In this document: positions 20,328 to 39,380 of the stretch, one piece after another
Layout of the letters: the number at the start of each line of letters is the position of its first letter
How positions within the stretch are numbered: position 1 is the first letter of the stretch
NCBI RefSeq assembly: GCF_009725985.1
Contig: NZ_RCNR01000042.1
Coordinates: 1 to 43,110, forward strand
Length of the DNA: 43,110 bases
Direction: 5' to 3'
Source of the DNA: Zobellia amurskyensis
GTDB lineage: Bacteria; Bacteroidota; Bacteroidia; Flavobacteriales; Flavobacteriaceae
Notes under the pieces: model-generated
Database searches by the model: none
Seen by the model: only the letters and a program-made list of their open reading frames with translations
Told to the model about the DNA's origin: nothing
Program-made: the position numbers and the translations under genes

Positions 20328-22136
20328 TTAATACCCAGGGTTTTGAGTTACTACATTTTCCGTAGCGTCAATTTCTGCCTGTGGTATAGGCCATAAATAG
20401 TGTTTTCCGGCGTCAAAGGTTCTTTCTTCCAACTCTCTGTAATCTAAGTTGCCCATTTCAACTCTTGGTTGAGAAGGCGCGCCAGTGTAATCTATGTAGC
20501 CGTCATCATCAATATTAGGAACATAATTTAAACTTCCTATTTTACTGAATCCATTGGCAGGACCACCAAAAACAGTAGTATTCATAACCTTTTCGGCAAC
20601 ACCCCATCTTCTAATATCAAACAGGCGAAGTCCTTCATCTGCGAACTCTACTTTACGCTCTCTTCTTATAATTTTTCTCAACTCTGCTTGATCCGTTGTA
20701 GTAACTGCAGGAAAAGCGAAACCACTATTGTTATAAGCACGTTCACGTACATCGTTCAATGCATTTAGAACACTAGCGTCTATGGTACCAGCTTCAATTT
20801 TAGCTTCGGCATAATTTAGAAGTACTTCTGCATATCTCATTAAATAAATGGTCTGTTCAGACTGTAAAGGACTAGGACCTCCTGTTAACGACCCTAATAA
20901 TCTAGGTGCATCTGAGAATTTTTTCCAGAAGTATCCAGTAAATGCAGTAAAACGATTCGCGCCTCCAGTTACATATTCAGTACCATCTACAGGGTCAATT
21001 ATTTTTCGACCTGCTGGGTTTGCCGCATTAGGATTGAAAACACGTTCAACTTTAGCGCCATCTTCAATACGCCAGGTTGCTATACTATCACTATGTTGTT
21101 GAATGATATGTCCTGTCCAGATATTATTTGGTAAGGCAATGGAAGCGGCCAAACGAGGATCACGATTTTCAAACGGATTTGCAGGATCATAAGCAGGATC
21201 CTCATCAATAGGTAATCCGTTTACAGTTTCGTAACTATCTACTGTTTGCTGAGAAGGAACCAATTGGCACCATCCACCAAACCTACTACCTTGAACTTGT
21301 GAAAGACTATGTGTTTTTGTTCCGTTTATATAGGATATATCCAATAGCACCTCTGATGAACCTATACCGGCATCTGTAAATAAAGCTTCGTAATCAGGAA
21401 ACAAACTGGGCGTTTCGGCAGAATTCATCACTTTAAGAGCGGCGCTTTCAGCCAATACATAATCTTCATTATACAATGCAATACGAGAAATCAGAGCATT
21501 AGCGGCATTAGCAGAGGCTCGCCCACGTTCATTTGCCGATTGTGTAGGAGGTAAAATACTAGCAGCCTCTTCCAAGTCAGCAATAATACTTGCAACGATT
21601 TCAGCTTTAGGCGTTCGGGATTTAATCTCCAGCTCTTCCAAGGAAGTTACTTCGGTCCTAAAAGGAACATCTCCGTAAAGTTCAGTCAGATAGCTGTAAA
21701 ACATGGCTCTTAAGAACAGTGCTTCGGCTTTGATTTGCTCATAACGACCAGGGTCAGAAGCTTCTTCGGCCTTGGGCATATTGGTCAATAGGTTGTTCGC
21801 TCTTTGTATACCGGTATAAAAACTATCCCAGAAGCCGTTTATAATACCTTCGGTAGAGGTAACTCCACCTGTGGTTACGGCTACAGTTCCACCAACATTA
21901 CCTCTATTATATGCGTAGTCTGTGGTGTGATCTAATAACTGAGGGAAAGGAACGCTTCTCACGTAATTCAAGGATTCGTAAACCCCTGTAAGAGCTACTT
22001 CCAATTGTGCTTCTGTTCTGAAGAATGTAGCATCAGTTGGGCTCCCAGGGTCTTCTAAGTTCAATACGTTGTCTTCACAGGCAGGAAATACCAGCAAGCT
22101 AAGACTTATTAAGATGATATATTTTATGTTTTTCAT
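20328..22136 (-). CDS. SusD/RagB-family surface glycan-binding lipoprotein
   Basis: A 602-aa lipoprotein (MKNIKYIILISLSLLVFPAC, Cys20) followed by EDNVLNLEDPGSPTDATFF, the usual start of SusD-like proteins. The N-terminal TPR-like part (ALTGVYESLNYVRSV; RYEQIKAEALFLRAMFYSYLTELYGDVPF) and the C-terminal RagB/SusD signature (YLMRYAEVLLNYAEAKIEAG, VRERAY, RRERKVEFADEGLRLFDIRRWG, YLWPIPQAEIDATE) are all present. It forms the lid of the SusC transporter at the cell surface and binds the incoming oligosaccharide. It is 18 bp downstream of susC, as a standard pair. The ligand cannot be read from sequence. Confidence 0.97.
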   Translation of the reverse strand: MKNIKYIILISLSLLVFPACEDNVLNLEDPGSPTDATFFRTEAQLEVALTGVYESLNYVRSVPFPQLLDHTTDYAYNRGNVGGTVAVTTGGVTSTEGIINGFWDSFYTGIQRANNLLTNMPKAEEASDPGRYEQIKAEALFLRAMFYSYLTELYGDVPFRTEVTSLEELEIKSRTPKAEIVASIIADLEEAASILPPTQSANERGRASANAANALISRIALYNEDYVLAESAALKVMNSAETPSLFPDYEALFTDAGIGSSEVLLDISYINGTKTHSLSQVQGSRFGGWCQLVPSQQTVDSYETVNGLPIDEDPAYDPANPFENRDPRLAASIALPNNIWTGHIIQQHSDSIATWRIEDGAKVERVFNPNAANPAGRKIIDPVDGTEYVTGGANRFTAFTGYFWKKFSDAPRLLGSLTGGPSPLQSEQTIYLMRYAEVLLNYAEAKIEAGTIDASVLNALNDVRERAYNNSGFAFPAVTTTDQAELRKIIRRERKVEFADEGLRLFDIRRWGVAEKVMNTTVFGGPANGFSKIGSLNYVPNIDDDGYIDYTGAPSQPRVEMGNLDYRELEERTFDAGKHYLWPIPQAEIDATENVVTQNPGY

Positions 22137-22154: not shown

Positions 22155-25100
22155 TTAGAATGTTACGTTAAGGCCCATAGTGAAAACTTTGGTAACAGGG
22201 TAAAAAGCACCACTGGAAAACTGTGGGGTTAACGGGTCTATACCTTCAGGCATGTTATCCCAAGTAGCTAAGTTTTGCCCAGACAGGTAAATACGAGCAG
22301 CTGAAATACTGAATTTATCCAATAAATCTCTAGGTATCTTATAGCCAAGAGTTATATTTCTTAGTCTTACATAAGAGGCATCATGCATCCAAGTTTCATT
22401 CACACGCCAGTTAGAGTGTGAACTTCCTGGAGTTAAACGCGGATATGCTGCACCTGTATTAGTAGGAGTCCAGTAATCCGTTTGCCATTCCTGAATTTTA
22501 CCAGCGTTAAAAAAGGCCCAACCAGCATCACCTTGCAATACCACATCACGTCCTCCAGCTCCAAGTAATGATACTGAAAGGTCAAAACCTTTATAGGCAG
22601 AGAAAAGCTCTAGTCCCCAATTTTGAGTAGTAATGTCACTACCAATAATAGTACGGTCATCATTTGTTATTGCTCCGTCCGGAACTCCATCAGGACCAGA
22701 GATATCAGCATATTTTAAATCACCCGCTTGGATTGCTCCAAATCCTGGCGATGGTAATGAACTATTAAGATTACCGTCTACATCAAAATCGCTTTCTTGA
22801 TAAAGTCCATCTACTTTTAGACCATAGATAGAACCAATTTCTTCGCCAACACGGTTAATTGTGTTACCTGGAGGTAATTGATCTAGACCGCCCAAGTCTT
22901 TGATTTCGTTGTCAAAACCAGAGTAGTTAAGGTTGATTCCGTAACGGAAATCTTCACCGATCATATCGTTCCAACCAATACTAATATCGTATCCTGTGTT
23001 CCAAACTTCACCAGCATTCTGAACTGGAGCTTCCAAACCTACGGATGTGGGTATGGTAACCCCTAAAAGAATATCTTTTGTTTTACGCACGTAATATTCT
23101 CCAGTGAAAGATAGCTTACTGTTAAAAAATTTAGCGTCCATGGCAACATTCTGGGTTTCGCCGGTTTCCCATTGTAATTGAGAATTGGCTAAAACTGATT
23201 GGGCACCACCAACTACTGGAGTACCGCCAATAACTGCATTGGCATTACCAAGACCGAAAAGTGAAGTATAAGGGAAGTTTACCTCTTGAGCCACAGCAGA
23301 ACCATCTGAACCTTGAATTACATCTCCGTTATTATCGGTTCTGTTGGCAGCAAAAATGAACTGGTTTCCTAATTGTCCCCAAGAGGCTCTAAATTTTAGA
23401 AAGTTGATGGTTTCATTGTCCTGAAGGAACTTCTCTTCGGATACTACCCAACCCACTGAAAAGGATGGGAAAGTTGCAGAACGATAGCCTTCGGCAAAAC
23501 GTGAAGAAGCATCTCTTCTAACATTTGCTTCAAAAAGATATTTGTTCTTGTACGTGTAGTTAATTCTTCCGAATAAAGACTCTAATCCGTTTAAGGTTGA
23601 ATTACCAGAGTTTAGTTGTGTATCTGGTAAACCATTATCGAGACCTCTAAATTCGTCTAGAACAAATCCTCTTCTACTAGCAGACCATATTTCCGAATTG
23701 AATTTAAGAAATTCATAGCCTCCTAAAACCGAAATATTGTGGTCACCAAATTCTTTTCCCCAGTTAGCTACTGCGTTAAAGTTATCTTGAAACGTGGTAA
23801 AGGTTTCCTTAAAAAGCGAACTTTCTGAAATACCGCCACCTACAGTGCTTTGAGCAACACCGCCAGAACCTTCGTAATAGGTGTACCGCGCTCTAAAATC
23901 ATCTTGGTCCCTGTCAAAAAATTGTGGTGCATACGTTGCAGCAATTGAGAAATTGTTGAATGGTCTGTAAGTTACTTTGGCCAAAGCTCTAAAGTAATTT
24001 GAAACGGTTTCATCTTTTGCAGTAGAATTAGCTAGTGCAACGGGATTACTACCACCAAAACCGGAACCATAGGTGCCATCATCATTAAAAGCTACAAAGA
24101 GTGGCTGTAGACGGTATGCCGAACGGGTAAGATCATTTAAACGCGCGGGCTGACTTTTAATTTCTCTTCTAAAGTTAAGGTCAAAAGCTAAGTCTAATTT
24201 TTTGCTTAAAGCATAATCTAGGTTAAACCTACCATTATATCTTTGGAATTTAAAGTTAGGAATGTTACCATCCTGATCGGTGAACGATATAGAACTGGCA
24301 ACTTTCAATTTTTCAGAACCACCACGTACAGAAAGACTATGATATTGCTGTATAGCAGCTGAATTGAATAGAAGACCAACCCAATCCGAATCTGGTAAGG
24401 CCTCTGAACCTACTCCGTTACCCGAGCGGTATTGGTTAAGGACGTCGTCAGAAAATGCACCAGGCTCAGCAGAGTTAAATGCTTCCATATACCCTAAAGC
24501 ATCTGCGAATTTTAGGTTTTGAGCAATGCTCTGTACCCCAACGTAAGTATTATAAGAGGTTGATATTTTACCTTCCTTACCTCTCTTTGTAGTAATAAGA
24601 ATTACACCGTTAGCCGCACGAGAGCCATATATAGCCGAAGCCGAAGCATCTTTAAGTACGGAAATAGATTCAATATCACTAGGGTCTAAACCATTAATGT
24701 CATCAGGGATACCATCAACTAAAATAAGTGGATTGTTTTTGGCTCCGCTACCTAAAGTACCTACCCCACGGATACGAATGGCTGCACCATCTGAGCCGGG
24801 CTGGCCACTGGATTGTGTTGCGGTTAGACCGGGTACAAGGCCTGCTAAAGCTTGTGAAGCTTGTGCAACGGGTTGTTTTGCTATTTCCTCCGCTTTAACG
24901 GTTTCTACAGATCCGGTTAAATTAACTGCTTTTTGGGTTCCGTACCCAACCACGACTACTTCATCTAGTTGCGATGCTTCTTCAGCCATGGTAACATTTA
25001 ATGTAGTTTGACCGTTTACGGCCTTTTCAACAGTTCCGTAACCAATAGAACTGAAGATTAAGGTAGTTCCTTCTGGAATTTCAATACTAAAATTTCCGTC

Positions 25101-25262
25101 AAAATCTGCTACAACTCCATTGGTTGTTCCTTTTTCAACAATGTTGGCAGCTGGTATGGGGATACCTTGTTCGTCGCTTACGGTACCTGATACCGTAATT
25201 TGTGCCGATATTTCGCAAAGCGCGAATATCGATAAAAGAAAAAATAAGACTGCTTTTTTCAT
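22155..25262 (-). CDS. SusC/RagA-family TonB-dependent outer-membrane transporter
   Basis: The start is placed at 25262 (MKKAVLFFLLSIFALCEISA signal), giving 1035 aa. The frame runs 159 bp further to 25421, but that segment contains the promoter and operator and encodes no plausible N-terminus. Residues of about 21-95 form a carboxypeptidase regulatory-like domain (ITVSGTVSDEQGIPIPAANI), followed by the TonB-box-like DEVVVVGYGTQ (100-110), the plug (RIRGVGTLGSGAKNNPLILVDG) and a long beta-barrel ending in a C-terminal Phe (MGLNVTF). With SusD it imports oligosaccharides across the outer membrane using TonB energy. It is the first gene of the long operon reading to the left window edge and carries the TCTAGT tandem motif in its leader. 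Confidence 0.96.
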   Translation of the reverse strand: MKKAVLFFLLSIFALCEISAQITVSGTVSDEQGIPIPAANIVEKGTTNGVVADFDGNFSIEIPEGTTLIFSSIGYGTVEKAVNGQTTLNVTMAEEASQLDEVVVVGYGTQKAVNLTGSVETVKAEEIAKQPVAQASQALAGLVPGLTATQSSGQPGSDGAAIRIRGVGTLGSGAKNNPLILVDGIPDDINGLDPSDIESISVLKDASASAIYGSRAANGVILITTKRGKEGKISTSYNTYVGVQSIAQNLKFADALGYMEAFNSAEPGAFSDDVLNQYRSGNGVGSEALPDSDWVGLLFNSAAIQQYHSLSVRGGSEKLKVASSISFTDQDGNIPNFKFQRYNGRFNLDYALSKKLDLAFDLNFRREIKSQPARLNDLTRSAYRLQPLFVAFNDDGTYGSGFGGSNPVALANSTAKDETVSNYFRALAKVTYRPFNNFSIAATYAPQFFDRDQDDFRARYTYYEGSGGVAQSTVGGGISESSLFKETFTTFQDNFNAVANWGKEFGDHNISVLGGYEFLKFNSEIWSASRRGFVLDEFRGLDNGLPDTQLNSGNSTLNGLESLFGRINYTYKNKYLFEANVRRDASSRFAEGYRSATFPSFSVGWVVSEEKFLQDNETINFLKFRASWGQLGNQFIFAANRTDNNGDVIQGSDGSAVAQEVNFPYTSLFGLGNANAVIGGTPVVGGAQSVLANSQLQWETGETQNVAMDAKFFNSKLSFTGEYYVRKTKDILLGVTIPTSVGLEAPVQNAGEVWNTGYDISIGWNDMIGEDFRYGINLNYSGFDNEIKDLGGLDQLPPGNTINRVGEEIGSIYGLKVDGLYQESDFDVDGNLNSSLPSPGFGAIQAGDLKYADISGPDGVPDGAITNDDRTIIGSDITTQNWGLELFSAYKGFDLSVSLLGAGGRDVVLQGDAGWAFFNAGKIQEWQTDYWTPTNTGAAYPRLTPGSSHSNWRVNETWMHDASYVRLRNITLGYKIPRDLLDKFSISAARIYLSGQNLATWDNMPEGIDPLTPQFSSGAFYPVTKVFTMGLNVTF

Positions 25263-25327
25263 AAGCTCTGGTTTAAGTTGAGAGGTGAATAGTGAGTTAT
25301 TTAACGTTTGACTGTTCCAAATTATAA

Positions 25328-25348
25328 GTCTAGTCTGGTCTAGTCTGT
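25328..25348. promoter_or_regulatory. Tandem 10-bp operator-like repeat upstream of susC
   Basis: Plus-strand GTCTAGTCTG occurs twice in direct tandem (25328-25337 and 25338-25347), so the core TCTAGT recurs one helical turn apart. It lies 5 bp downstream (minus direction) of the proposed susC -7 box, where a repressor would block transcription start. A near-identical tandem, TCTAGTACGG twice, lies in the same place at 31067-31086. The likely ligand is the GntR/LacI-type regulator encoded at 25650, which is inference. Confidence 0.7.
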
Positions 25349-25352
25349 TTAA

Positions 25353-25384
25353 CAAATAAATAACATTATTACATATTTGCCAAA
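25353..25384 (-). promoter_or_regulatory. Candidate susC promoter (TTTG-N20-TTTATTTG)
   Basis: On the minus strand, TTTG (plus 25381-25384) is followed after exactly 20 bp by TTTATTTG (plus 25353-25360). This matches the Bacteroidota -33/-7 consensus TTTG-N19~21-TAnnTTTG with one mismatch. Transcription would begin within a few bases of 25347, at the edge of the tandem repeat, leaving a leader of about 85 nt before the susC ATG. Confidence 0.6.
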
Positions 25385-25610
25385 TATTTTTTGCTAAATG
25401 TTGAATTTGAGGGGGTAACAATTGGTATTCTCTTAATTATCGTGGTGTTTCATAGGATTTTTCTTTCCAAAAATATTTGAACACAATACTTTTAAGCTGA
25501 TTTTACCTAAATTAGAATCTGTAAAATCAATTATAATTTTAAGTGACTAGATTTATATTTTATAAATCGGCTACTTGATTCAACTGTAAAGCAGGTAATT
25601 TTGGTTTTAG

Positions 25611-25649: not shown

Positions 25650-26666
25650 ATGGTAAAACTTAGTATCGAAAAGAACTCAAAGAAGCCTAAATATCTTCTG
25701 CTTGCAGATAGTATTACTTCCCAAATTGAACAAAAGCAATTAGTTCTTGATGAAAGGTTACCATCAGTAAACAAGCTCTCCGCTCATTTTAACTTTAGTC
25801 GTGAAACAGTTTTTAAAGCATTAAACTACCTAAGCGAAAAGGGAATTGTTAGGGCAGTGGACAAGATTGGTTATTTTGTGAACGACCTTTCCGTAGAAAC
25901 GGAGTTTAAGGTGTTTTTCTTGCTGGATAAGTTTACTCCCTTTAAGGAAGATTTATATAATTCACTTATTTCAAGCTTGGGTGAAAATGTAAAGGTCCGC
26001 TTATATTTTCATCACCAAAACATTGAACTTTTTGCGTCTCTAATTTTAGATAATCTCAAAAATTACACACACTTTGTAGTTACCACATACATAGAGGATT
26101 CAAAATCGGTTCAGAAAGTGCTCAATAAAATACCACCGGAAAAATTGATTATTCTGGATAAATATGAGCCTAATGTCAACGATGGTTGTGGTATGGTTTT
26201 TCAAGATTTTGAGAATGACATTCTTAATCTACTAAAAGAAAATATTGATTTGGTTAACAAGTACGATAGGCTTGTACTTTTCAATCGTAAAAATGCACCA
26301 CACGGCGATTTTGTACAAAAAGGTTTTGAACGATTTAGTGCGGAATACAACTTTAAGAGCGAGGTGTTTTATAACTTTTCTCCGGACTACTTTGAAAAAG
26401 GAACGCTTTACATAACCATTGATGCCTATGATAGAGATATGGTGGAGATTATAAAATTGGCTCGTAAATCTGAATGGGAGCTGGGTAAAGAGATTGGGCT
26501 AATTAGTTATAACGATACCAGTACTAAAGAGATTTTAGCCGGTGGTATATCAGTAATTAGTACCGATTTTAAGAAAATGGGCGAGGAAGCTGCCAAAATG
26601 ATTTTAGAAGGCAGACGAGAACATAAAAGCAATGAAACCAAATTGATTCTAAGAAATTCGCTCTAA
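25650..26666 (+). CDS. GntR-type HTH / LacI-type ligand-domain transcriptional regulator
   Basis: A 338-aa regulator and the only plus-strand gene. The N-terminal winged helix (about residues 10-80) reads ADSITSQIEQKQLVLDERLPSVNKL, then FSRETVFKALNYLSEKGIVRAV, as in GntR family members. The rest (about 85-338) looks like a periplasmic-binding-protein/LacI-type sensor, ending IGLISYNDTSTKEILAGG and MGEEAAKMILEGR. Such hybrids sense a sugar in the cytoplasm and often control a neighbouring PUL in Bacteroidota. It is divergent from susC and convergent with cstA, its stop lying 8 bp from the cstA stop with no terminator hairpin. The tandem TCTAGT sites on both flanking minus-strand units are its best candidate operators. 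Confidence 0.88.
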   Translation: MVKLSIEKNSKKPKYLLLADSITSQIEQKQLVLDERLPSVNKLSAHFNFSRETVFKALNYLSEKGIVRAVDKIGYFVNDLSVETEFKVFFLLDKFTPFKEDLYNSLISSLGENVKVRLYFHHQNIELFASLILDNLKNYTHFVVTTYIEDSKSVQKVLNKIPPEKLIILDKYEPNVNDGCGMVFQDFENDILNLLKENIDLVNKYDRLVLFNRKNAPHGDFVQKGFERFSAEYNFKSEVFYNFSPDYFEKGTLYITIDAYDRDMVEIIKLARKSEWELGKEIGLISYNDTSTKEILAGGISVISTDFKKMGEEAAKMILEGRREHKSNETKLILRNSL

Positions 26667-26674
26667 AATATTAA

Positions 26675-28117
26675 TTACATTACCTGTACAAAAACCTTCT
26701 TTCGCTGTACGGCATAATACCAAAATAGCAACGAAATCAATATAGTGAGAATGGCACCTCCTATATAAGCCACGTTATTTTCCAATTCAAATCCTTCAGG
26801 TGCTATGAGAATGTATGTGGAGCATACCATAGTCATGAAAATGGCAGGAATTAGAGTAACCCAATACAATTTATTCTCATAAATTAAATACGCGGTAATC
26901 GTCCACAGCACTACGGTAGCCAAGGTTTGATTACTCCATGCAAAATAGCGCCATATCATTCCAAAATCCATCTGGGTAAGTGCAAAAGCAACTATAAATA
27001 GAGGAATACTTATATAAAGTCGATTTTTTATTTTCTTTTGGTCGGTCTTAAAAATATCCGATAATATAAGTCTTGCAGAACGGAAGGCGGTATCACCAGA
27101 AGTGATAGGAGCAGCCACAATACCCAATAAGGCAAGAACACCACCAACTTTACCCAACATGTTCAGCGATATTTCATTGGCAGCCCATGCTGCGTTATTT
27201 CCATTGGCCAACATGGCATCGTTAAGACCTCCCACATTACCAAAAAAGGTCATGGCTGCAGCGGCCCATATTAGAGCTACGACACCTTCGGTAATCATAG
27301 TTCCAAAGAAAATCTTTCTACCTAGTCTTTCGTTTTGCATACAACGTGCCATAAGGGGTGATTGTGTAGCATGGAAACCAGATATGGCTCCGCAGGCAAT
27401 CGTAACAAAAAGTATGGGAAAGAGGGGTGTTGCTTCTGGGTCGGACGTCATGTTTACTAGATTGGAAGGAACCAATTCAGGGATGGTGTAATCGCCAAAA
27501 AATAAAGCAATTAGCAACCCGAGGGCCATAAGAAGCATGGCTACCCCGAATACGGGATAGATTTTACCAATCATTTTGTCAATGGGCAAGAGGGTAGATA
27601 GGATATAATAAGCCAGAATTATCCCCACCCAAATCCAAAGGTTCCACATATTACCGGTCATCCCATCTATAATTTTTGCAGGACCCATAAGGAATACGGT
27701 ACCCACAAAAATCAAAAGTATAACAGTGAAGTAGCGCATAACATGTTTCATTCGTGGTCCCAAATAGATACCCACAATTTCGCTAATACTTAACCCGTTG
27801 TGGCGTACGGATAACATGCCTGAAAAATAATCGTGAACAGCTCCTGCAAAAATACTGCCCAACACAATCCATAAAAAAGCGGCAGGTCCAAACATTGCTC
27901 CGGCAATTGCCCCAAAAATAGGTCCTAGGCCAGCTATATTTAAGAACTGAATAAGAAAAATACGCCAAGCGGGTAGGGGCATAAAATCAATATCGTCCCG
28001 TAAACGTATGGCAGGCGTTTCTCTTTTTGTATCCACACCAAAAATGTTTTCCACTAGTTTTCCATAAGTGTAATAACCCAATACCAATACAAGAACAGAA
28101 ATGATAAACGAAACCAT
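26675..28117 (-). CDS. CstA-family carbon starvation transporter (short form)
   Basis: A 480-aa polytopic inner-membrane protein. Its start MVSFIISVLVLVLGYYTYGKLVENIFGVD, the segment QFLNIAGLGPIFGAIAGAMFGP, HDYFSGMLSVRHNGLSISEIVG and the HATQSPLMARCMQNERLGRK region are typical of CstA proteins. E. coli CstA (about 700 aa) takes up pyruvate and peptides. This shorter form is common in Bacteroidota and its substrate is not established. It is the last gene of the unit starting at 31051, 25 bp after the flavinylation-motif protein. That placement suggests it moves a small organic acid or other product linked to the redox proteins, or serves general scavenging. The family call is sure; the substrate is not. 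Confidence 0.88.
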   Translation of the reverse strand: MVSFIISVLVLVLGYYTYGKLVENIFGVDTKRETPAIRLRDDIDFMPLPAWRIFLIQFLNIAGLGPIFGAIAGAMFGPAAFLWIVLGSIFAGAVHDYFSGMLSVRHNGLSISEIVGIYLGPRMKHVMRYFTVILLIFVGTVFLMGPAKIIDGMTGNMWNLWIWVGIILAYYILSTLLPIDKMIGKIYPVFGVAMLLMALGLLIALFFGDYTIPELVPSNLVNMTSDPEATPLFPILFVTIACGAISGFHATQSPLMARCMQNERLGRKIFFGTMITEGVVALIWAAAAMTFFGNVGGLNDAMLANGNNAAWAANEISLNMLGKVGGVLALLGIVAAPITSGDTAFRSARLILSDIFKTDQKKIKNRLYISIPLFIVAFALTQMDFGMIWRYFAWSNQTLATVVLWTITAYLIYENKLYWVTLIPAIFMTMVCSTYILIAPEGFELENNVAYIGGAILTILISLLFWYYAVQRKKVFVQVM

Positions 28118-28142: not shown

Positions 28143-29261
28143 TTAGCTATTATCCTCTAAGAACTGAGTAACAAGATATGCATTCTTCTCTTTATTGGAT
28201 GCGGAAAAATGCTCAAGGTTTTTTAATACTTCCGAGGAAATTGCTTTTTTACTTCCTAGGTGCTCTAAGTATTTAAGCAACTGATTTTTAGTAAGTACAC
28301 TTAACTGCGTTGAAATATGCGCCACGGTAGCGTCAGAAGCAAAATCTATATGCTGCAGTAACAAACTTCGGGTATTGATATCAATATAGGGAAGTGCGTC
28401 CCAAAAAGGTTGCATAGCAGAGGGCGACTGCGAAAAAGAATCCGATAAGTTTTTAATAATGTAAGAACGAACTAAAGGAATACTTGATTTGAAGAGTTCC
28501 GATATTCTAGAAAAATTAGCTTTATACTGATTTTCATCAAAATTTTCTAAGGCATACATCTGATAATTGGTATGGCCGCTGTTCAGCATTTGCACCAACA
28601 TAGCTTCGTCTTGTTGCTGAACGGTATAGGCCTTAATTTGCTCCTTAATTTTACCATGAACCAAATGCCAAGCTACATAACAGGAATAGAGCGCTCCCGA
28701 AACAACGGATTCTTTTACCTCTTTTACCGTGGCGCCGGATAGGGCATCTACACCTTCAATCTTTGAAGGTTTGGGTTTGGTGACCAACTCATCTATGGCT
28801 CTTCTCTTTAAGATTGAATTGTGGTCTCTTAACAAATCATGAAGCTTCCAATAATCCGAGAACAAAAACTCATCATGGTCATGTTTGGTTAATGGTTCTT
28901 GAACTGAACGGTCAAAACCCGCATAATCACCCAAAAGGGTCCAATACAGGGTAATGTGCATAAATTTGCAATCTCCATCTGCACAAACGGGCGTTATGAT
29001 GTTGGAGGAATACAAAATAGGCGCTCCTTTTGCGTCCCGAAATAAGTTTACCTTTTGAGCACCCACAGAATCAGTAACGATTTCTAATGGGGTTTCTGAA
29101 ATGTGGAGCGCTGTGTTGGGTTGCCAATCCAATATATAAAACTCTGGACTAGCTTCTAAAACGGTCTTCTCGTGACTATCGGAAAATGCGATAGGCGACC
29201 CAAACTGAGCGTTGCAAAGATGGGGCGCAAGTAAAAGGAAGACGAACGCAATTCGTATCAT
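28143..29261 (-). CDS. Secreted FMN-binding-type protein with flavinylation motif and helical-repeat C-terminus
   Basis: A 372-aa protein with a signal peptide (MIRIAFVFLLLAPHLCNAQ). Residues 172-178 (DALSGAT, preceded by EGV) match the DxxSGAT motif at which ApbE attaches FMN to a Thr in NqrC/RnfG-type domains, so Thr178 is the predicted flavin site. Upstream lies a Cys pair, PVCADGDCKF (Cys93, Cys98), and a conserved-looking HITLYWTLLGDYAGF. The C-terminal half (about 215-372) is all-helical with HEAT-like pairs (VRSYIIKNLSD, LLLQHIDFASD). The gene overlaps the upstream FAD oxidoreductase by 4 bp (ATGA-type junction), which implies coupled translation and a shared task, probably electron transfer outside the cytoplasm. 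No apbE is in the window. Flavinylation is inferred from the motif only. Confidence 0.7.
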   Translation of the reverse strand: MIRIAFVFLLLAPHLCNAQFGSPIAFSDSHEKTVLEASPEFYILDWQPNTALHISETPLEIVTDSVGAQKVNLFRDAKGAPILYSSNIITPVCADGDCKFMHITLYWTLLGDYAGFDRSVQEPLTKHDHDEFLFSDYWKLHDLLRDHNSILKRRAIDELVTKPKPSKIEGVDALSGATVKEVKESVVSGALYSCYVAWHLVHGKIKEQIKAYTVQQQDEAMLVQMLNSGHTNYQMYALENFDENQYKANFSRISELFKSSIPLVRSYIIKNLSDSFSQSPSAMQPFWDALPYIDINTRSLLLQHIDFASDATVAHISTQLSVLTKNQLLKYLEHLGSKKAISSEVLKNLEHFSASNKEKNAYLVTQFLEDNS

Positions 29262-31051
29262 TTTTTAGAAGTAGGAATTTTTTCGTATTTCTGATCTTCT
29301 ATCAAATTTAAATATTCATCTAAATATCCAGTGTAAATCTCACGCGGCATAACTTCATATTTTTTACAAAGTGAAGCGGCATAACCAACTGCAGCACCCA
29401 TTTGACCCGTAGTAAGCATAACTCTAGGGCCTCCAAGGCCAGCATGCGAGCAACTGAAATTACGACCGGCCATAAACAAATTTTTAATATTCTTAGAGTA
29501 CAAACTTCTGTATGGAATATAGTATTGTGGACCTCTGTAGAATAACGCTTCCGAAATAAAATCTGGATTGTTTTCATCTTCTAGAACGGTTTGGTAATGT
29601 ACATCTACCGCTCTTGTTTCGATCACGACACCATCAGGAAATTTTGTTCCTTCCTTAGCGTCGTTGAAGGTAAAAATATGGTCGCCCACTAATCGTCTAG
29701 ATTCACGTTTACCTACTAAATATGAAACCCATTCCAGTTTTCGGTTTTTATTGACGTCGTCTTTTTTAGCGTTGGAAAATGAGCCATAAATAGCACGAAG
29801 CATGTGGTCGCGTATTTCTTCGGCATCATCAATCTGACTCAAATCGTTACGGCTAAATTCCCACTGCCATTCGCCATTAACTTCGGCATAATCTTTAGAT
29901 ACAGGCATGGCCCAAGGTACTTCAGGAAAATTCTGAGGGCTATCCGTATCTTTGGATCCCCAAAGTACAGAAGAACCCATAACGGCATTATCCGCTTCTT
30001 TTGGACTCCATAGTTCACCATGCTCCTCCCAATGCTCTCCATAGGTATCAACACTTTCACGTCCGTACGAGAATTCCGCGCCAGCCCAGAAACCTATCCA
30101 GCCATCTCCTGTAGAATCTACAAAATAAGGAGCGGTAAACCGCTTTCTATCTCCCGTAAAAGTTTGTCTAGCATCTACATATTTTACACTATTTTCTTCG
30201 GAAACGGCATCGTAAGCACGCCAGTTTAGAAATAAATCAATATTGTCATAACTCTTAACATTTTCATCCCTTTTTTGCTGGTCTATTTTGGACTCGGCTG
30301 AACCGTTGGGGTAGTGCTTGGTATCTATTTTCTTTAATATTCGTTCAAAATTACCGTAGATACCTAAGGTGTGAACGCGAATTTCTTCACTGGCATTCCC
30401 TCCTAAAACGGGACGGTCATGAATTAAGGCGACTTTAAGTCCCTGTTCTGCTCCGGCTATGGCCGCTGCACAACCCGCTAGACCGCCACCTACAACTACC
30501 AAATCATAAGATTTTACTTTTTCAGGAGCATTAGGTTGGGCCGTAATTTCTTGACGCCAAGCTGCTAACTTTTTAGTGGATGAGGGAGGTGTATCTTTTT
30601 TAGTTGAAAAATAGATGGCATCACAACGCCCGTTAAAACCTGTAAGATCTTGTAGTTCAATATGCGTAGCTTGCTTTTTGTTGATTTTGGCCTCACCGGC
30701 ATATTGCCATCCCCAACCAGAGCGGGTTCCTAAAACGGTATCTAATACCGTTTCGCCTACTTTTAATTGGAATCTTCCCGGAGCTTCCCATTCACCAGGA
30801 ACCCAATTCATGGTGCGTACCCAGATATGATATGTACCCGATTTTTTAAAGTTTACCTCCGTTGAAGCATTTTCTACCGGCTTGCCCATGCCATGCGCAT
30901 TTAGGTATGGCGAGCCCATTTGCTCTACAAACTGTGGGTCTACCAACCAACCTCCAGGGTTATCAAAACTTTCTGCCTCAACAAGTACGTCTTGCGATAG
31001 GCCGTAAAGCGTGCTGAAGATCACAAATAATAGGGAAAATACATTTTTCAT
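29258..31051 (-). CDS. Secreted FAD-dependent oxidoreductase with N-terminal carbohydrate-binding-like domain
   Basis: A 597-aa protein with a signal peptide (MKNVFSLLFVIFSTLYGLSQ). Residues of about 22-150 form a beta-sandwich starting VLVEAESFDNPGGW, like CBM6/35-type modules. The FAD domain begins at about 183 with LVVVGGGLAGCAAA (GxGxxG at 188-193) and DRPVLGGNASEEIR, then GKRESRRLVGDHIF and LFMAGRNFSCSHAGLGGPRVM. The flavin domain closely parallels the cytoplasmic paralog at 16208-18508. Its N-terminal module and export signal place this one in the periplasm or at the surface, acting on a glycan or sugar. The electron acceptor may be the flavinylation-motif protein encoded directly downstream (4-bp overlap). 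It is first in its unit, behind the TCTAGT tandem operator. Confidence 0.85.
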   Translation of the reverse strand: MKNVFSLLFVIFSTLYGLSQDVLVEAESFDNPGGWLVDPQFVEQMGSPYLNAHGMGKPVENASTEVNFKKSGTYHIWVRTMNWVPGEWEAPGRFQLKVGETVLDTVLGTRSGWGWQYAGEAKINKKQATHIELQDLTGFNGRCDAIYFSTKKDTPPSSTKKLAAWRQEITAQPNAPEKVKSYDLVVVGGGLAGCAAAIAGAEQGLKVALIHDRPVLGGNASEEIRVHTLGIYGNFERILKKIDTKHYPNGSAESKIDQQKRDENVKSYDNIDLFLNWRAYDAVSEENSVKYVDARQTFTGDRKRFTAPYFVDSTGDGWIGFWAGAEFSYGRESVDTYGEHWEEHGELWSPKEADNAVMGSSVLWGSKDTDSPQNFPEVPWAMPVSKDYAEVNGEWQWEFSRNDLSQIDDAEEIRDHMLRAIYGSFSNAKKDDVNKNRKLEWVSYLVGKRESRRLVGDHIFTFNDAKEGTKFPDGVVIETRAVDVHYQTVLEDENNPDFISEALFYRGPQYYIPYRSLYSKNIKNLFMAGRNFSCSHAGLGGPRVMLTTGQMGAAVGYAASLCKKYEVMPREIYTGYLDEYLNLIEDQKYEKIPTSKK

Positions 31052-31066
31052 AGCGGTAACATTAAA

Positions 31067-31086
31067 TCTAGTACGGTCTAGTACGG
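31067..31086. promoter_or_regulatory. Tandem 10-bp operator-like repeat upstream of the secreted FAD oxidoreductase
   Basis: TCTAGTACGG occurs twice in exact tandem, 16 bp upstream of the ATG at 31051. It shares TCTAGT-N2-GG and the 10-bp period with the repeat in front of susC. A TAnnTTTG-like box (minus TATATTTA, plus 31093-31100) lies 6 bp upstream in the minus direction, almost the same spacing as at susC. No good -33 TTTG is seen. Confidence 0.65.
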
Positions 31087-34207: not shown

Positions 34208-36469
34208 TTATTTGCTCTTTTCAAGCTCTTCAATGGTCCAATAATCTTCACGACCTTCTTGTTCTTTTCTAACTTTACTGACTTGCCATCCGCCAACACC
34301 TTTTTCGTTGTTCAAGTGCATTCGGATATAAGTGACCACGCTGGCAATGTAATCATCGTCCTGTTGTTTCATACCCGCCATAACACCGGAATATTCTTTA
34401 CCGTCAACAGGTCCGGTAAGTCCATTTAAAAGAATTTTCACTGTAATATTCCAATCTTTAGCGGTAACCCTAGGGGAGCCTACCAATGACGGAGCCATTC
34501 CTTCAATACCCGTACCGTTCATGCCGTGACAAGCAGCGCAGAGGTTTTTGAAATTGTTGTAGCCCTCCACAATTCTCTTTCTTGTATTACTGTTTTGTAA
34601 AACGTACTGTTTCTTAATTTTCTCTATTTCTAAAGGAACTTCCTTTAAGCTTTCTTCACCAATAGTTGCAATGGCTTCATTACTAGGATTGGCCGCCATA
34701 ATTTCAGAAATGGTTTCTTTTCCCATTTTGTCTTTAGCTGAATTCAAAGAAAGGACTACTTGCTGTAAAACCTCAGGGTCTTTATCACTCTTCAAAGCCT
34801 GAACTGCTTCAAAAACACTGGCATCTCCTGATTTTAAAAAGGGCTCACTTACGCGTAAGGCTGCCGCACGTACACGGGCATCTTCGTCTTGTAAAGCAGC
34901 TAGAACAAGAGGTTTGTCTATGGCATCAAGACCATCTAGCGTCCAGATAGCATGAAGCCTACCTAAAGCATAATCAGTATCACCTAACATAGAACCTATA
35001 AAAGGCGTTCCACCAGTGACCATATCTTTCAAATCGGATACGGTACTCTTATCTTGTTTTAGTACCAATACTTTCTGTGCTGTAAGACGGTACCAACCGT
35101 TAGGGTGATGTAGGTATTCTAATAGCTCATTATTAGTTTTGTGCAATAAGTCTTCTTGTTTTGAAGGTGCTATTTCCTCATGAACTATTCTATAAATTCT
35201 ACCTTTTCCAACATTTTTATCAAAACCTTTTCTTTCTACTACGGGGCGCAAAAAACTACCTTTTCTAACCCAGTTACCCTCTTGGATAATACCGCGATAC
35301 ATGTCAACTACGTACAGACAACCGTCAGGACCAGTCTGTGTATCCACAGGTCTAAAGTTGGTATCTGTAGATGCCAAGAATTCCGTTTCGCCATAAGGAT
35401 TGGACAATACTTTTTTTCCGTTTACCAAGTTCACTTTCGCACGGCGAATTAAACGCCCAACAGGTTCTGGAATAAAAAGGTCTCCGTACATAGATAGTTT
35501 ATCTCCCAAGAATATAGACTGCCCACAGCTGGCCGTAAAATGATTTAGCGTTCCATCTTCACGAAGACGGCCAAAACCACCTTGAACATCCGGTGTTCCA
35601 ATAATAGGCCATACTTTTTCAAAGCCTTCTTCCCATTTTCCTTCCATTTCCAAAGTACCATAGTAGGGGTGTTGTTGGTAGCCCAGCGCGGGAGTTTCTC
35701 CACCGGCACTGGAATAGTAAAGTTGACCAATTTCATCTTGTGTCATACCCCATTGACCCGAAGGCGCATCTCTTAGAGTGTCAATTTCCATTTCGCCTCT
35801 GGTAAAACGGTATCGTAAAGAACCGTTGGATAAATAGAGGTAGTTATCCAATCCCCATATCATTGTAGCAGATTGGTGCTCTAGATTTGCATTGTCTCTT
35901 TTGTTATTTTCAAGTACTAATTTCTTTTCGTCAGCAACGTTATCGCCATCTGTATCTCTGTAGGTATAAAGACTACGGTTATAGGTCTCGCCAATTAGGA
36001 TGCGGTCATCTAACGGAAGTATAATCCTTGGAAGAATCAGGCTATCAACAAAAACGGTGCTTTTGTCCATTTTTCCATCACCATCAGTATCTTCAAGAAC
36101 AGAAACCCTGCTCCAAGGCTCATTTTCATTAGTACCGTCAATATCCTGCATATATGTGAGCATTTCAGCAACATAAAGTTTACCATCAGGACCCCAAGCA
36201 ATTGTTACGGGTTCATTGATCATAGGTTCACTAGCCACTAGTTCCATATGATAACCCTCAGGAAGATGCATGGTTTTCATACTCTCTTCTGGAGACATAA
36301 AAACAACAGGTGGGTCTTTTACGAGTGTTGGTTTGGTATAAATAACATCTGCGTAGACCGGTTTTTCTTTTTTGCAACTGCCAAGCGCTAATAGTATAAG
36401 GGCAGAAGTAACAAAGAGACTTTTTTGTGTCGTAGAACGATTTGGTAACTGGTAAAATGATTGATTCAT
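34208..36469 (-). CDS. Dehydrogenase-like beta-propeller lipoprotein with HEAT repeats and C-terminal cytochrome c
   Basis: A 753-aa lipoprotein (lipobox LGSC, Cys32). Residues of about 65-410 form a sorbosone/glucose dehydrogenase-like propeller (MINEPVTIAWGPDGKLYVAEM, DTDGDGKMDKSTVF, VDTQTGPDGCLYVVDMYRG). Helical HEAT-like repeats follow (about 430-600). The C-terminus carries one heme c site, LCAACHGMNG (CAACH, 644-648), with a possible distal Met in SGVMAGM. The layout matches the 'PVC-type heme-binding CxxCH protein' group, abundant in Planctomycetes and marine Bacteroidota. It is predicted to oxidise a sugar or related compound outside the inner membrane and pass electrons to its heme. 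The substrate is unknown. It heads a two-gene unit with the GH2 at 31265, behind a 430-bp non-coding region. Confidence 0.85.
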   Translation of the reverse strand: MNQSFYQLPNRSTTQKSLFVTSALILLALGSCKKEKPVYADVIYTKPTLVKDPPVVFMSPEESMKTMHLPEGYHMELVASEPMINEPVTIAWGPDGKLYVAEMLTYMQDIDGTNENEPWSRVSVLEDTDGDGKMDKSTVFVDSLILPRIILPLDDRILIGETYNRSLYTYRDTDGDNVADEKKLVLENNKRDNANLEHQSATMIWGLDNYLYLSNGSLRYRFTRGEMEIDTLRDAPSGQWGMTQDEIGQLYYSSAGGETPALGYQQHPYYGTLEMEGKWEEGFEKVWPIIGTPDVQGGFGRLREDGTLNHFTASCGQSIFLGDKLSMYGDLFIPEPVGRLIRRAKVNLVNGKKVLSNPYGETEFLASTDTNFRPVDTQTGPDGCLYVVDMYRGIIQEGNWVRKGSFLRPVVERKGFDKNVGKGRIYRIVHEEIAPSKQEDLLHKTNNELLEYLHHPNGWYRLTAQKVLVLKQDKSTVSDLKDMVTGGTPFIGSMLGDTDYALGRLHAIWTLDGLDAIDKPLVLAALQDEDARVRAAALRVSEPFLKSGDASVFEAVQALKSDKDPEVLQQVVLSLNSAKDKMGKETISEIMAANPSNEAIATIGEESLKEVPLEIEKIKKQYVLQNSNTRKRIVEGYNNFKNLCAACHGMNGTGIEGMAPSLVGSPRVTAKDWNITVKILLNGLTGPVDGKEYSGVMAGMKQQDDDYIASVVTYIRMHLNNEKGVGGWQVSKVRKEQEGREDYWTIEELEKSK

Positions 36470-36899: not shown

Positions 36900-39380
36900 T
36901 TAGTGTTCGCTTGCAGAAAGTTTAGAATACGCTATTATCAACTTACCTTCGTTTGTTTTTCCAAGTAATTTCCCTGCAAAATTGAGAGCTGTAATGCCGT
37001 TTCCAGAGCCGTCAAATTCCACGATGAGGTCTTTTCCTTTTTTCTTGGTTTTAGAAACTTTAGAACCTTTTCCAAAATCGACTTCCTCAGAAGCACCAAA
37101 TCGTAAAGAAGCAAGGTCAATATCTTTTTGAGCATCAAAACCTGCTTCTGAAAGCACTAGAATTTTAATCTTTTTTGTGGTTGAATCTATCTTCTTTTTA
37201 TTCAACATCTTAATGCGTTTATGCACAGTAAGGGGAACAACAATATTTTTGGAACTATGTTTGTCTCTAGCCAAATCATCTGCCTTTGGGACATCTATTA
37301 CGGCAAGGGAAAGATGTGTGGCTCTACCATACTCGTCCTGTAAAACATGGGGGCGCTCTAATTTATACCAATGTGTGCGGGTCCCATCTTCATAAGAAGT
37401 ATTGTCAGGCGTATAGGCCGTACCGGGGTTGAATTTCCAATGGATGCCGTCGGGTGAACGTAGGTAAATTGCCCGATAATCCCAGAATGCGTTAATCATC
37501 ATATGATACTGTACTTCATCTTTCCAAAGTACCGGATCTTCGTAATTGGAGTTTCTATATTTTTCGGGAATAATGGGGTTGTAGCGGATCTGGTCGGTCA
37601 GCACGGTATAGGGCCCCAGTGGGTCGTCTGTGGAACTGCGCATCATTTCCCCGGCCTTGGTTACAAATAGAAACCGACCATCTTCTAACTGAACGCCTGA
37701 TAAGTTGCGGTAATACCGGTATGAAAGTTTTTCGTCTTCATTGGTGCTTTTCCAATCGACGGTCATGGTTCCCAAACGATTCCATGGGCCGTTCATGGTT
37801 TTGGAGGTGAACAAGGTAGCTTCCCAGTCTACGAGGGAGTAAAGCATATATGTACCATCATTCAATAAAATTATATCAGGATTATGGCCCAATCCATTAT
37901 GAAAACCATAGGCCGTATCTTTTTTTACCTTGTACGGTCCCGTTGGTGCTTCGGAGACCACATGCGCTACAGTTGAATTTGGCCATTCCCAATGGCCCTT
38001 GGTAGCGTTTGCTGGCCACCTAGTTACCAACATATGGTATTTGTTGTCCTGATCTTTTACTGGTCTGCCACCCCAATAGCTCCACTCGGGATCTTCTATA
38101 CCGTTATCAGGGTCACGGGGCAAAACGCCTTCCGCTCCCCAAAGATCGGTTCGCAATTGCTTATGGATGGGCATGGGTAAGATAAGGTCGCTAAACGAAG
38201 TGCCGGATACCGCTTTTACTTTGGCCCTTACCAGTTGTGAGGCCTTACTCTTATTTCCTGAATGATCGTGGGCGAAGAGCACATATGAGTTATAGTCTTC
38301 TTTTTTCGGGGTAAAATCAACATATTGGGTGCTTGTAAGGTCATGGGCGATCTGGCGAAGGTGATTTCCATTGGCATCCCCTCTATACACCGAGTAACTG
38401 GCCACATCAACATCGATACTTTTGTTCCACTCCAGTTTAATTTCAGTTTGAAGGGCCTCGATTTTTAGTGTAGAAGGAGGGGCAGGGGCCTCACTGTCTA
38501 ATTTTTTAAGAAGCACCTTGTTCGATCCCACAGACTCTGAAGTATCGAGGCGGGTTACGACATAGCTATATGCCATACCGTTGATAAGGTTTGTATCCGT
38601 AAAAACAGAGTCAGGGGTAGTAGTCAGTTTTTTATACTCCCCATTTTTACTTTTGCTCCTGTATACCGAAAACTTGCCGCCTGAATTCGCTTTTTTATCC
38701 GTCCAATCCAAACGGATACCGTCGGCCACTATTTTTCCCGAAAGGGTTGGACCTTCTTTTTCAGGAGCTTTTACGCTAAGGTTGACATATTCTAGAAAAA
38801 CTTTTACATCTTCATTTGAATAAAACGAGACACGAATATGTGGTGTTCCGGCAGCGACATCTTCTTTCGTAATCGTATAGCTTCCTGAAAAATGCTCAAC
38901 AGTCTTGTCAGAGCCAATTAGTTTCACTTTTTCAGCTAAGATGCGCTCCTGTTCACCAAAAAATAGATGTAAGGAAAGGGAGCCGTTACTTATGTATTCC
39001 AAATCGGCACCAAGGCTCCAGTTCAATTCATCACCTGGTTTTAAGTTTTGATAATCAGAATTGATGTTCAAAGGTTTGGAATCGATATAGGCATAATCAA
39101 AAGAACTAAAATATCGTCCTGTAACCAAGCCCATAGAGTGACCTTCTTTCTGTGGTTCGTTAGAGGGCGTCCAGAATGGGGATTGCAATCCAAGGCGCCA
39201 AGAACCGGCCTGTATCAAATTAAAATCACCATCGTTTACATTGGGGTAGGGGGCGTTGTCCCCAAGGAGAACACTTTGTGCCGATAAACTCAAGTGGCAA
39301 AAAAGAAGCAATACAATTGATAGAAAAGTATATGCAGGGGTACTTTTTTCTTTTTGCCGAGGGTAATTTAAATGCATCAT
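36900..39380 (-). CDS. Multidomain beta-propeller glycoside hydrolase-like protein (CBM-like, two Fn3, propeller)
   Basis: An 826-aa secreted protein; the signal spans about 15-35 (AYTFLSIVLLLFCHLSLSAQ) and the ATG at 39377 is an alternative start. Domains in order: a jelly-roll carbohydrate-binding-like module (about 40-210, DGDFNLIQAGSWRLGLQ), two fibronectin III-like domains (about 212-300 and 301-390, FSVYRSKSKNGEYKKL and YSVYRGDANGNHLRQI), a five-bladed propeller (about 395-710) and a small C-terminal beta domain (about 725-826). Propeller stations WGGRP, GHNPDI, YEDPVL and LERPHV match the 384-aa lipoprotein at 5272-6426. The substrate is unknown; it is presumably a galactoside- or fucoside-type exo-enzyme. 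It is the last gene of the right-hand unit, 45 bp after GH29. Confidence 0.72.
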   Translation of the reverse strand: MMHLNYPRQKEKSTPAYTFLSIVLLLFCHLSLSAQSVLLGDNAPYPNVNDGDFNLIQAGSWRLGLQSPFWTPSNEPQKEGHSMGLVTGRYFSSFDYAYIDSKPLNINSDYQNLKPGDELNWSLGADLEYISNGSLSLHLFFGEQERILAEKVKLIGSDKTVEHFSGSYTITKEDVAAGTPHIRVSFYSNEDVKVFLEYVNLSVKAPEKEGPTLSGKIVADGIRLDWTDKKANSGGKFSVYRSKSKNGEYKKLTTTPDSVFTDTNLINGMAYSYVVTRLDTSESVGSNKVLLKKLDSEAPAPPSTLKIEALQTEIKLEWNKSIDVDVASYSVYRGDANGNHLRQIAHDLTSTQYVDFTPKKEDYNSYVLFAHDHSGNKSKASQLVRAKVKAVSGTSFSDLILPMPIHKQLRTDLWGAEGVLPRDPDNGIEDPEWSYWGGRPVKDQDNKYHMLVTRWPANATKGHWEWPNSTVAHVVSEAPTGPYKVKKDTAYGFHNGLGHNPDIILLNDGTYMLYSLVDWEATLFTSKTMNGPWNRLGTMTVDWKSTNEDEKLSYRYYRNLSGVQLEDGRFLFVTKAGEMMRSSTDDPLGPYTVLTDQIRYNPIIPEKYRNSNYEDPVLWKDEVQYHMMINAFWDYRAIYLRSPDGIHWKFNPGTAYTPDNTSYEDGTRTHWYKLERPHVLQDEYGRATHLSLAVIDVPKADDLARDKHSSKNIVVPLTVHKRIKMLNKKKIDSTTKKIKILVLSEAGFDAQKDIDLASLRFGASEEVDFGKGSKVSKTKKKGKDLIVEFDGSGNGITALNFAGKLLGKTNEGKLIIAYSKLSASEH

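Follow-up and report, generated by a model that had tools for sequence, protein, structure and literature searches.

The window analyzed here, a 43,110-nucleotide stretch of the Zobellia amurskyensis genome (contig NZ_RCNR01000042.1, positions 1 to 43,110), comes from a marine, seaweed-associated bacterium and carries two overlapping genes that form a conserved two-protein module. One encodes an export-type flavin adenine dinucleotide (FAD) oxidoreductase, and the other encodes a 372-amino-acid (aa) protein with the motif DALSGAT, for which we coined the name SGAT protein. Judging from its sequence, the SGAT protein very likely represents an unnamed family of substrates of the flavin transferase ApbE, with a dedicated flavoenzyme partner. 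We consider it reasonably likely that the products of the two genes act as a periplasmic redox pair for glycan catabolism, in which electrons would pass from the FAD enzyme to the flavinylated SGAT protein and on to a membrane acceptor. The basis for this reading is the genes themselves, the motif, their linkage, the adjacency of apbE in relatives, and export leaders (Sec-like, Tat-like, or export-type), the leaders being assigned by eye.

The FAD oxidoreductase gene (positions 29258 to 31051, minus strand; 597 aa) matched FAD_oxidored (PF12831) over residues 183 to 575 with a score of 211.7 bits against a cutoff of 27 (E = 3e-62), and its GxGxxG motif lies at residue 188. The SGAT gene follows at 28143 to 29261 on the same strand, the oxidoreductase stop and the SGAT start sharing ATGA at 29258 to 29261. 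DALSGAT occupies residues 172 to 178 (28728 to 28748, minus strand), with Thr178 as the predicted site of flavin mononucleotide (FMN) attachment. The existence of the pair at this place is thus confirmed, and an earlier note on this DNA, made from the sequence alone, was accurate as to both open reading frames (ORFs), their 4-bp overlap, the motif, and the FAD domain. The same note had called the N-terminal domain of the oxidoreductase CBM-like (for carbohydrate-binding module), a label that found no support: the region from approximately residue 20 to 150 reached no Pfam family at an E value of 1 or better. Both proteins open with a hydrophobic leader (MKNVFSLLFVIFSTLYGLSQ and MIRIAFVFLLLAPHLCNA), recognized by eye, which would be compatible with a location outside the cytosol.

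The two genes remain linked in relatives, a check that the earlier note had proposed and that held in nearly every place seen. A scan of named genomes yielded 241 relatives, the best 80 of which were examined (79 loci, L052 to L130, containing 82 homologues). In 81 of the 82 cases, a FAD_oxidored gene of the same orientation was separated from the homologue by no more than 125 bp or overlapped it by no more than that; gene starts were called mechanically, and longer overlaps may represent over-extended starts. For the remaining homologue (L077), the contig ends 56 bp from the start of the gene. Because these 79 loci were the top of a score list, we added a sample of 395 genomes from the phylum, in which 10 SGAT places were found in 8 genomes, two of these places being in the window genome. 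The FAD gene adjoined the SGAT gene in 9 of the 10 and was one gene away in the other (L192), with apbE between them. Among 60 near relatives, including the window's own genome, a FAD gene stood beside the SGAT gene in 16 of 17 places, L173 being the exception; the neighbor in L172 is short and divergent (452 aa). In a tree built from 80 paired rows, the FAD gene came first in 57 and second in 23, with at least two changes of order, and the genes have therefore stayed together through rearrangement. SGAT and FAD distances were also correlated (r = 0.83; 80 pairs), but this was not used as evidence, since shared descent alone would produce it. A second pair is present in the window genome on another contig (C3), with an SGAT protein 28% identical to the first, the motif DGMAGAT, and a Tat-like leader on the FAD enzyme. 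Two SGAT-FAD pairs lie side by side in Arenibacter sp. F26102 (L089:4637-11032), where they adjoin a GFO/IDH/MocA oxidoreductase, and in Flavilitoribacter nigricans (L091:4972-10945).

Pairing with an SGAT protein was, for the most part, specific to FAD enzymes with a leader. Fourteen of the 32 FAD_oxidored matches collected at E = 1e-20 were of a leaderless, ~760-aa type, in which GxGxxG starts at residues 25 to 29 (60 in one protein with a longer start), and none of these 14 had an SGAT gene within 1.5 kb on either side. In contrast, an SGAT neighbor was found for 15 of the other 18 enzymes, 17 of which were read and carry Sec- or Tat-like leaders, the last being placed by similarity.

The ApbE motif has been defined as D-x-x-[S/T]-G-A-[S/T] (PMC12052999). 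The threonine, whose loss in orthologues the earlier note had named as evidence against its prediction, was invariant across the 83 sequences aligned, and Asp172 was retained in 82 of them. In the 79 best named loci, 78 of the 82 homologues fit D..[STA]GA[TS] (position 4 being S, T, or A); the four outside this pattern (DGVSSAT, DGISSAT, EAISGAT, and DAVTGET) all retain the Thr, and a further homologue (L191) carries DALSGST. The pattern was absent from all 888 other ORFs of at least 100 aa that were selected from these loci (421,504 residues), and its chance expectation, calculated from the composition of the SGAT protein itself, was 0.18% per protein. Given this expectation and the frequencies of 0/888 versus 78/82, the motif exceeds chance. 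A cysteine pair, C93-x4-C98 (28968 to 28985, minus strand), is also conserved (Cys93 in 82 and Cys98 in 83 of the 83 sequences); a disulfide or ligand role is conceivable.

No curated family covers the SGAT protein, which reached no Pfam or NCBIfam cutoff. HEAT_2 was its only Pfam match at E values up to 1 (E = 0.088, below cutoff), so that FMN_bind (PF04205) was not matched; NCBIfam gave no match, and four divergent homologues had zero Pfam matches at E = 1e-3. A plasmid search returned 2 distant records, one annotated as a hypothetical protein. In the full-length AlphaFold model (mean predicted local distance difference test [pLDDT] score of 79.7), a beta-sheet N-terminal domain containing the motif follows the leader and is joined to a helical, HEAT-like C-terminal half. 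A structure search with this model recovered chiefly helical-repeat proteins, and no E value was below 0.04.

Alignment of the N-terminal domain with 13 FMN_bind domains (mostly NqrC-type) by hhalign scored 35.2, falling to 12.2 when the motif was masked. Full column shuffles scored at most 17.7, and shuffles that kept the motif had a median of 34.5, with several exceeding the real score. Relaxed settings gave a collinear alignment through the motif, and default settings gave 31 columns with the motif outside. Masking and shuffling thus show that the score comes from the motif alone, and FMN_bind homology by sequence was rejected for this reason. When the N-terminal domain was searched against 350,542 chains with Foldseek, RnfG ranked 1, 4, and 5 and NqrC ranked 7, 20, and 23, matches that were not significant (E = 0.33 to 1.8; template modeling score of at most 0.40). 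The domain may be a highly divergent FMN_bind fold or a new ApbE-substrate domain.

Three copies of apbE, which the earlier note had suggested seeking, were found in the window genome. The first belongs to an Nqr operon with an NqrC that carries DALAGAT; the second neighbors DUF3570, and the third neighbors thioredoxin-like and Rieske genes. Ten of the 79 loci (from Spirosoma, Rudanella, Runella, Dyadobacter, and Chitinophaga) have apbE directly after the SGAT and FAD genes, with SusC or SusD in the same locus. ApbE was identified with Pfam in L117 (PF02424, E = 1e-75), and its counterparts in the other nine loci matched it in phmmer comparisons with E values of 1e-96 or better. The same SGAT-FAD-apbE arrangement was found in L190, and in L192, from the window's own family, the order is FAD-ApbE-SGAT, and 6 bp separate the end of apbE from the SGAT gene. 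On the tree, the adjacency in the ten loci would fit one origin and a loss in Larkinella, though the counted changes number two. ApbE was present in all 43 homologue-bearing genomes searched (of 44 selected from the 79 loci) compared to 131 of 198 genomes sampled from the phylum. The window genome also encodes, on contig C58 (L142:1300-1794, minus strand), a DUF2271 protein with DAISGAT, a member of a known ApbE-substrate family.

The pair is situated in a polysaccharide utilization locus (PUL), as the earlier note had proposed. The locus is identified as such by its SusC/SusD pair, carbohydrate-active enzymes, and regulator, and its members include, on the minus strand, an SSF transporter (18571-20223), SusD (20328-22136), and SusC (22155-25421), together with three sulfatases, glycoside hydrolases (GH; three GH2, GH97, two GH43-like, and GH29), an apiosidase-like protein, and a GntR regulator. 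Within it, the genes for FAD_oxidored, the SGAT protein, and CstA, in this order, make up a three-gene run on the minus strand. The CstA-family transporter (26675 to 28117; 480 aa; PF02554, E = 1.2e-55) is a candidate importer of the product. A CstA homologue occurs in 18 of the 79 named loci, at most 61 bp away in 17, and L172 and L188 likewise have one adjoining the pair (recognized by length and N terminus); SSF and MFS transporters occur in 25 and 8 loci, respectively, and 46 of the 79 contain at least one of these three types. A second PF12831 oxidoreductase of the PUL (16208 to 18508, minus strand) has no visible export leader and could catalyze a later, cytoplasmic step. Paralogues of this leaderless type (759 to 766 aa) also accompany the pair in 11 of the 79 loci, a recurrence that hints at a two-step pathway.

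A tandem element, CCGTACTAG-A-CCGTACTAG (31068 to 31086, minus strand), stands 16 bp ahead of the FAD gene as a candidate operator or promoter element. It occurs once in the window, and a recognizable version precedes the FAD gene in 6 of 6 related loci printed, suggesting that the three-gene run probably has its own regulated promoter. The divergent GntR-family regulator encoded at 25650-26666 may use the element as its operator. Upstream of GH2, at 34208-36469 (minus strand), is a DUF7133/PVC-type protein with HEAT and cytochrome c domains that could serve as a local electron acceptor; as a general acceptor it was rejected, since its cluster was found in only 4 of the 79 loci, all Zobellia. 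An 826-aa protein at 36900-39380 (minus strand) had no Pfam match at E = 1e-3 and a weak NCBIfam match to exoglucanase CbhB (E = 2.1e-9, far below cutoff). Two recurrent families of ~840 to 860 aa lie beside the pair in 12 and 15 of the 79 loci (L121:13967-16537 and L083:5473-8001, respectively); they lack Pfam and NCBIfam matches and are possibly unnamed carbohydrate-active enzymes. The known carrageenan, agar, and brown-algal systems of Zobellia were rejected as the identity of this PUL; the available texts describing them (PMC5698469, PMC9296495, PMC5613140, and PMC6950322) do not name the pair.

For the working of the pair, we infer flavinylation, a sugar substrate, a direction of electron flow, an acceptor, and docking as follows. 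The exported FAD enzyme would probably dehydrogenate, in the periplasm, a sugar or short oligosaccharide freed by the hydrolases and sulfatases of the PUL. ApbE would attach FMN to Thr178 in the N-terminal domain of the SGAT protein, and this FMN would take electrons from the FAD enzyme. The SGAT protein would then hand the electrons to a membrane acceptor encoded elsewhere and thereby to respiration, and its HEAT-like tail may offer a surface for docking. Import of the product would fall to the neighboring inner-membrane transporter, CstA in the window and SSF or MFS elsewhere, after which the leaderless PF12831 paralogue may act. The earlier note had proposed such a pairing, and both the pairing and the predicted flavinylation gained support from the invariant Thr, the linkage, and the position of apbE beside the pair in some genomes; a glycan-derived sugar as the substrate is still a proposal. 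The absence of a curated family, the HEAT-like half, the apbE and transporter neighbors in relatives, and the divergent second pair are additions to that note.

Several observations weigh against a redox pair of this kind. Three exported-type FAD enzymes have no SGAT neighbor (one in genome G013 and two in G009), and one SGAT homologue of genome G010 (L173, 7840-8706, minus strand) has no FAD enzyme nearby; its surroundings include genes for a di-heme peroxidase, an imelysin, and a phosphate-selective porin, and this carrier is perhaps used with another partner. The variant DAVTGET is found in the second SGAT copy of L069. When the N-terminal domain was modeled alone with 53 sequences, its pLDDT reached 86.3, with the motif loop below 50, and no structure fixes the position of the motif with confidence, although the earlier note had named its placement in an FMN-binding fold as a check. 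Near the pair, no dedicated membrane electron carrier was recognized among the neighbors, not every one of which was identified. No apbE lies on the window contig, and none lies near the pair in 69 of the 79 loci. Finally, ApbE was also present in all 17 listed genomes of the same family; its presence in a genome thus adds little and was rejected, as weak, for proof of flavinylation.

Three other explanations were weighed against these data. The same pair could run in reverse, with the flavinylated protein feeding respiratory electrons to the FAD enzyme, which would reduce a glycan-derived or other algal compound in the manner of FMN-dependent fumarate and urocanate reductases. We judge this direction unlikely but keep it as the main rival, because the known exported FAD enzymes with FMN domains are mostly reductases, including the best-studied ones (PMC8238504). 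A single-sequence search at E = 1e-5 found no solved relative of the exported PF12831 enzymes, and the closest solved chains by profile were flavocytochrome c fumarate reductases, matched over the FAD-binding stretch at residues 173 to 233 only. Nevertheless, the PUL setting and the sugar-type transporters fit nutrient oxidation at least as well, and neither line of evidence decides. It is less probable still that the SGAT protein is unflavinylated, its DxxSGAT loop being structural or binding something else, and that it is a non-redox scaffold, chaperone, or substrate-binding subunit. Such a role would agree with the loss of similarity to FMN_bind upon masking and with structural matches that were not significant and, at full length, comprised repeat scaffolds only. 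However, the entire seven-residue ApbE motif is retained among sequences as low as ~23 to 27% identity, and several genomes, with two different gene orders between them, have apbE adjoining the pair; both observations argue for modification. Large proteomes do contain some short motifs by chance alone, but coincidence of motif and neighborhood is very improbable here given the invariant Thr, the absence of the motif from neighboring ORFs, and a linkage that persists through altered gene order.

If the redox pair is as proposed, ApbE flavinylation gains a substrate family that surveys based on domain models would miss, because no Pfam or NCBIfam cutoff is reached. Exported PF12831 enzymes would gain a physiological electron partner, making their substrates assayable, and polysaccharide utilization would be tied to periplasmic electron transfer, such that these bacteria may exchange electrons, in either direction, with glycan-derived compounds ahead of import. 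More tentatively, and at less than even confidence, the SGAT proteins may constitute an ApbE-substrate class with its own fold across Bacteroidota PULs, in which glycan sugars would be oxidized in the periplasm and electrons passed via covalent FMN to respiration before the carbon enters the cell. A literature search, mostly of open papers, found nothing that joins flavinylation or FAD_oxidored with polysaccharide utilization, which does not imply absence from print. In its main text, as available, PMC8238504 lacks the terms Bacteroid-, HEAT, carbohydrate, polysaccharide, FAD_oxidored, and glyc-; that of PMC11334425 lacks HEAT, carbohydrate, polysaccharide, and sugar, with Bacteroid- appearing once, for a PDB entry.

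Among known systems, the AA3/GMC FAD-dependent glycoside oxidoreductases of Zobellia resemble the window enzyme in being FAD enzymes proposed to oxidize glycosides, but they belong to GMC rather than PF12831, and the available text on them does not mention a flavinylated partner (PMC6950322). NqrC and RnfG (PF04205) share with the SGAT protein a DxxSGAT-type motif in a loop before a helix, as in the DALAGAT of the genome's own NqrC, and the weak Foldseek matches; the SGAT protein differs in having no Pfam match, and its sequence likeness to them is the motif alone. ApbE substrates outside FMN_bind are already established in DUF2271 and DUF3570 (PMC8238504), both present in the window genome, and in Flavodoxin_4 and FMN_red forms (PMC11334425). 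DUF2271 and DUF3570 were first noticed through apbE neighbors and a conserved motif; they are other sequence families, however, and their flavinylation was shown by gel, whereas that of the SGAT protein is predicted (PMC8238504). Closest in organization are the fumarate reductase-like PF00890 flavoenzymes, in which an FMN domain, fused or neighboring, connects an exported FAD enzyme with the respiratory chain (PMC8238504). In that class, as predicted here, one module comprises the exported flavoenzyme together with an FMN carrier modified by ApbE, and for the fumarate and urocanate reductases the acceptor or donor is encoded elsewhere (PMC8238504). In contrast, the window enzyme is PF12831 and not PF00890 over its length, its carrier is encoded as a protein of its own, belongs to a different sequence family, and has a HEAT-like half, and its setting is a PUL rather than anaerobic respiration. 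The SGAT-FAD module involves no new principle and would work like the flavinylated redox modules already known.

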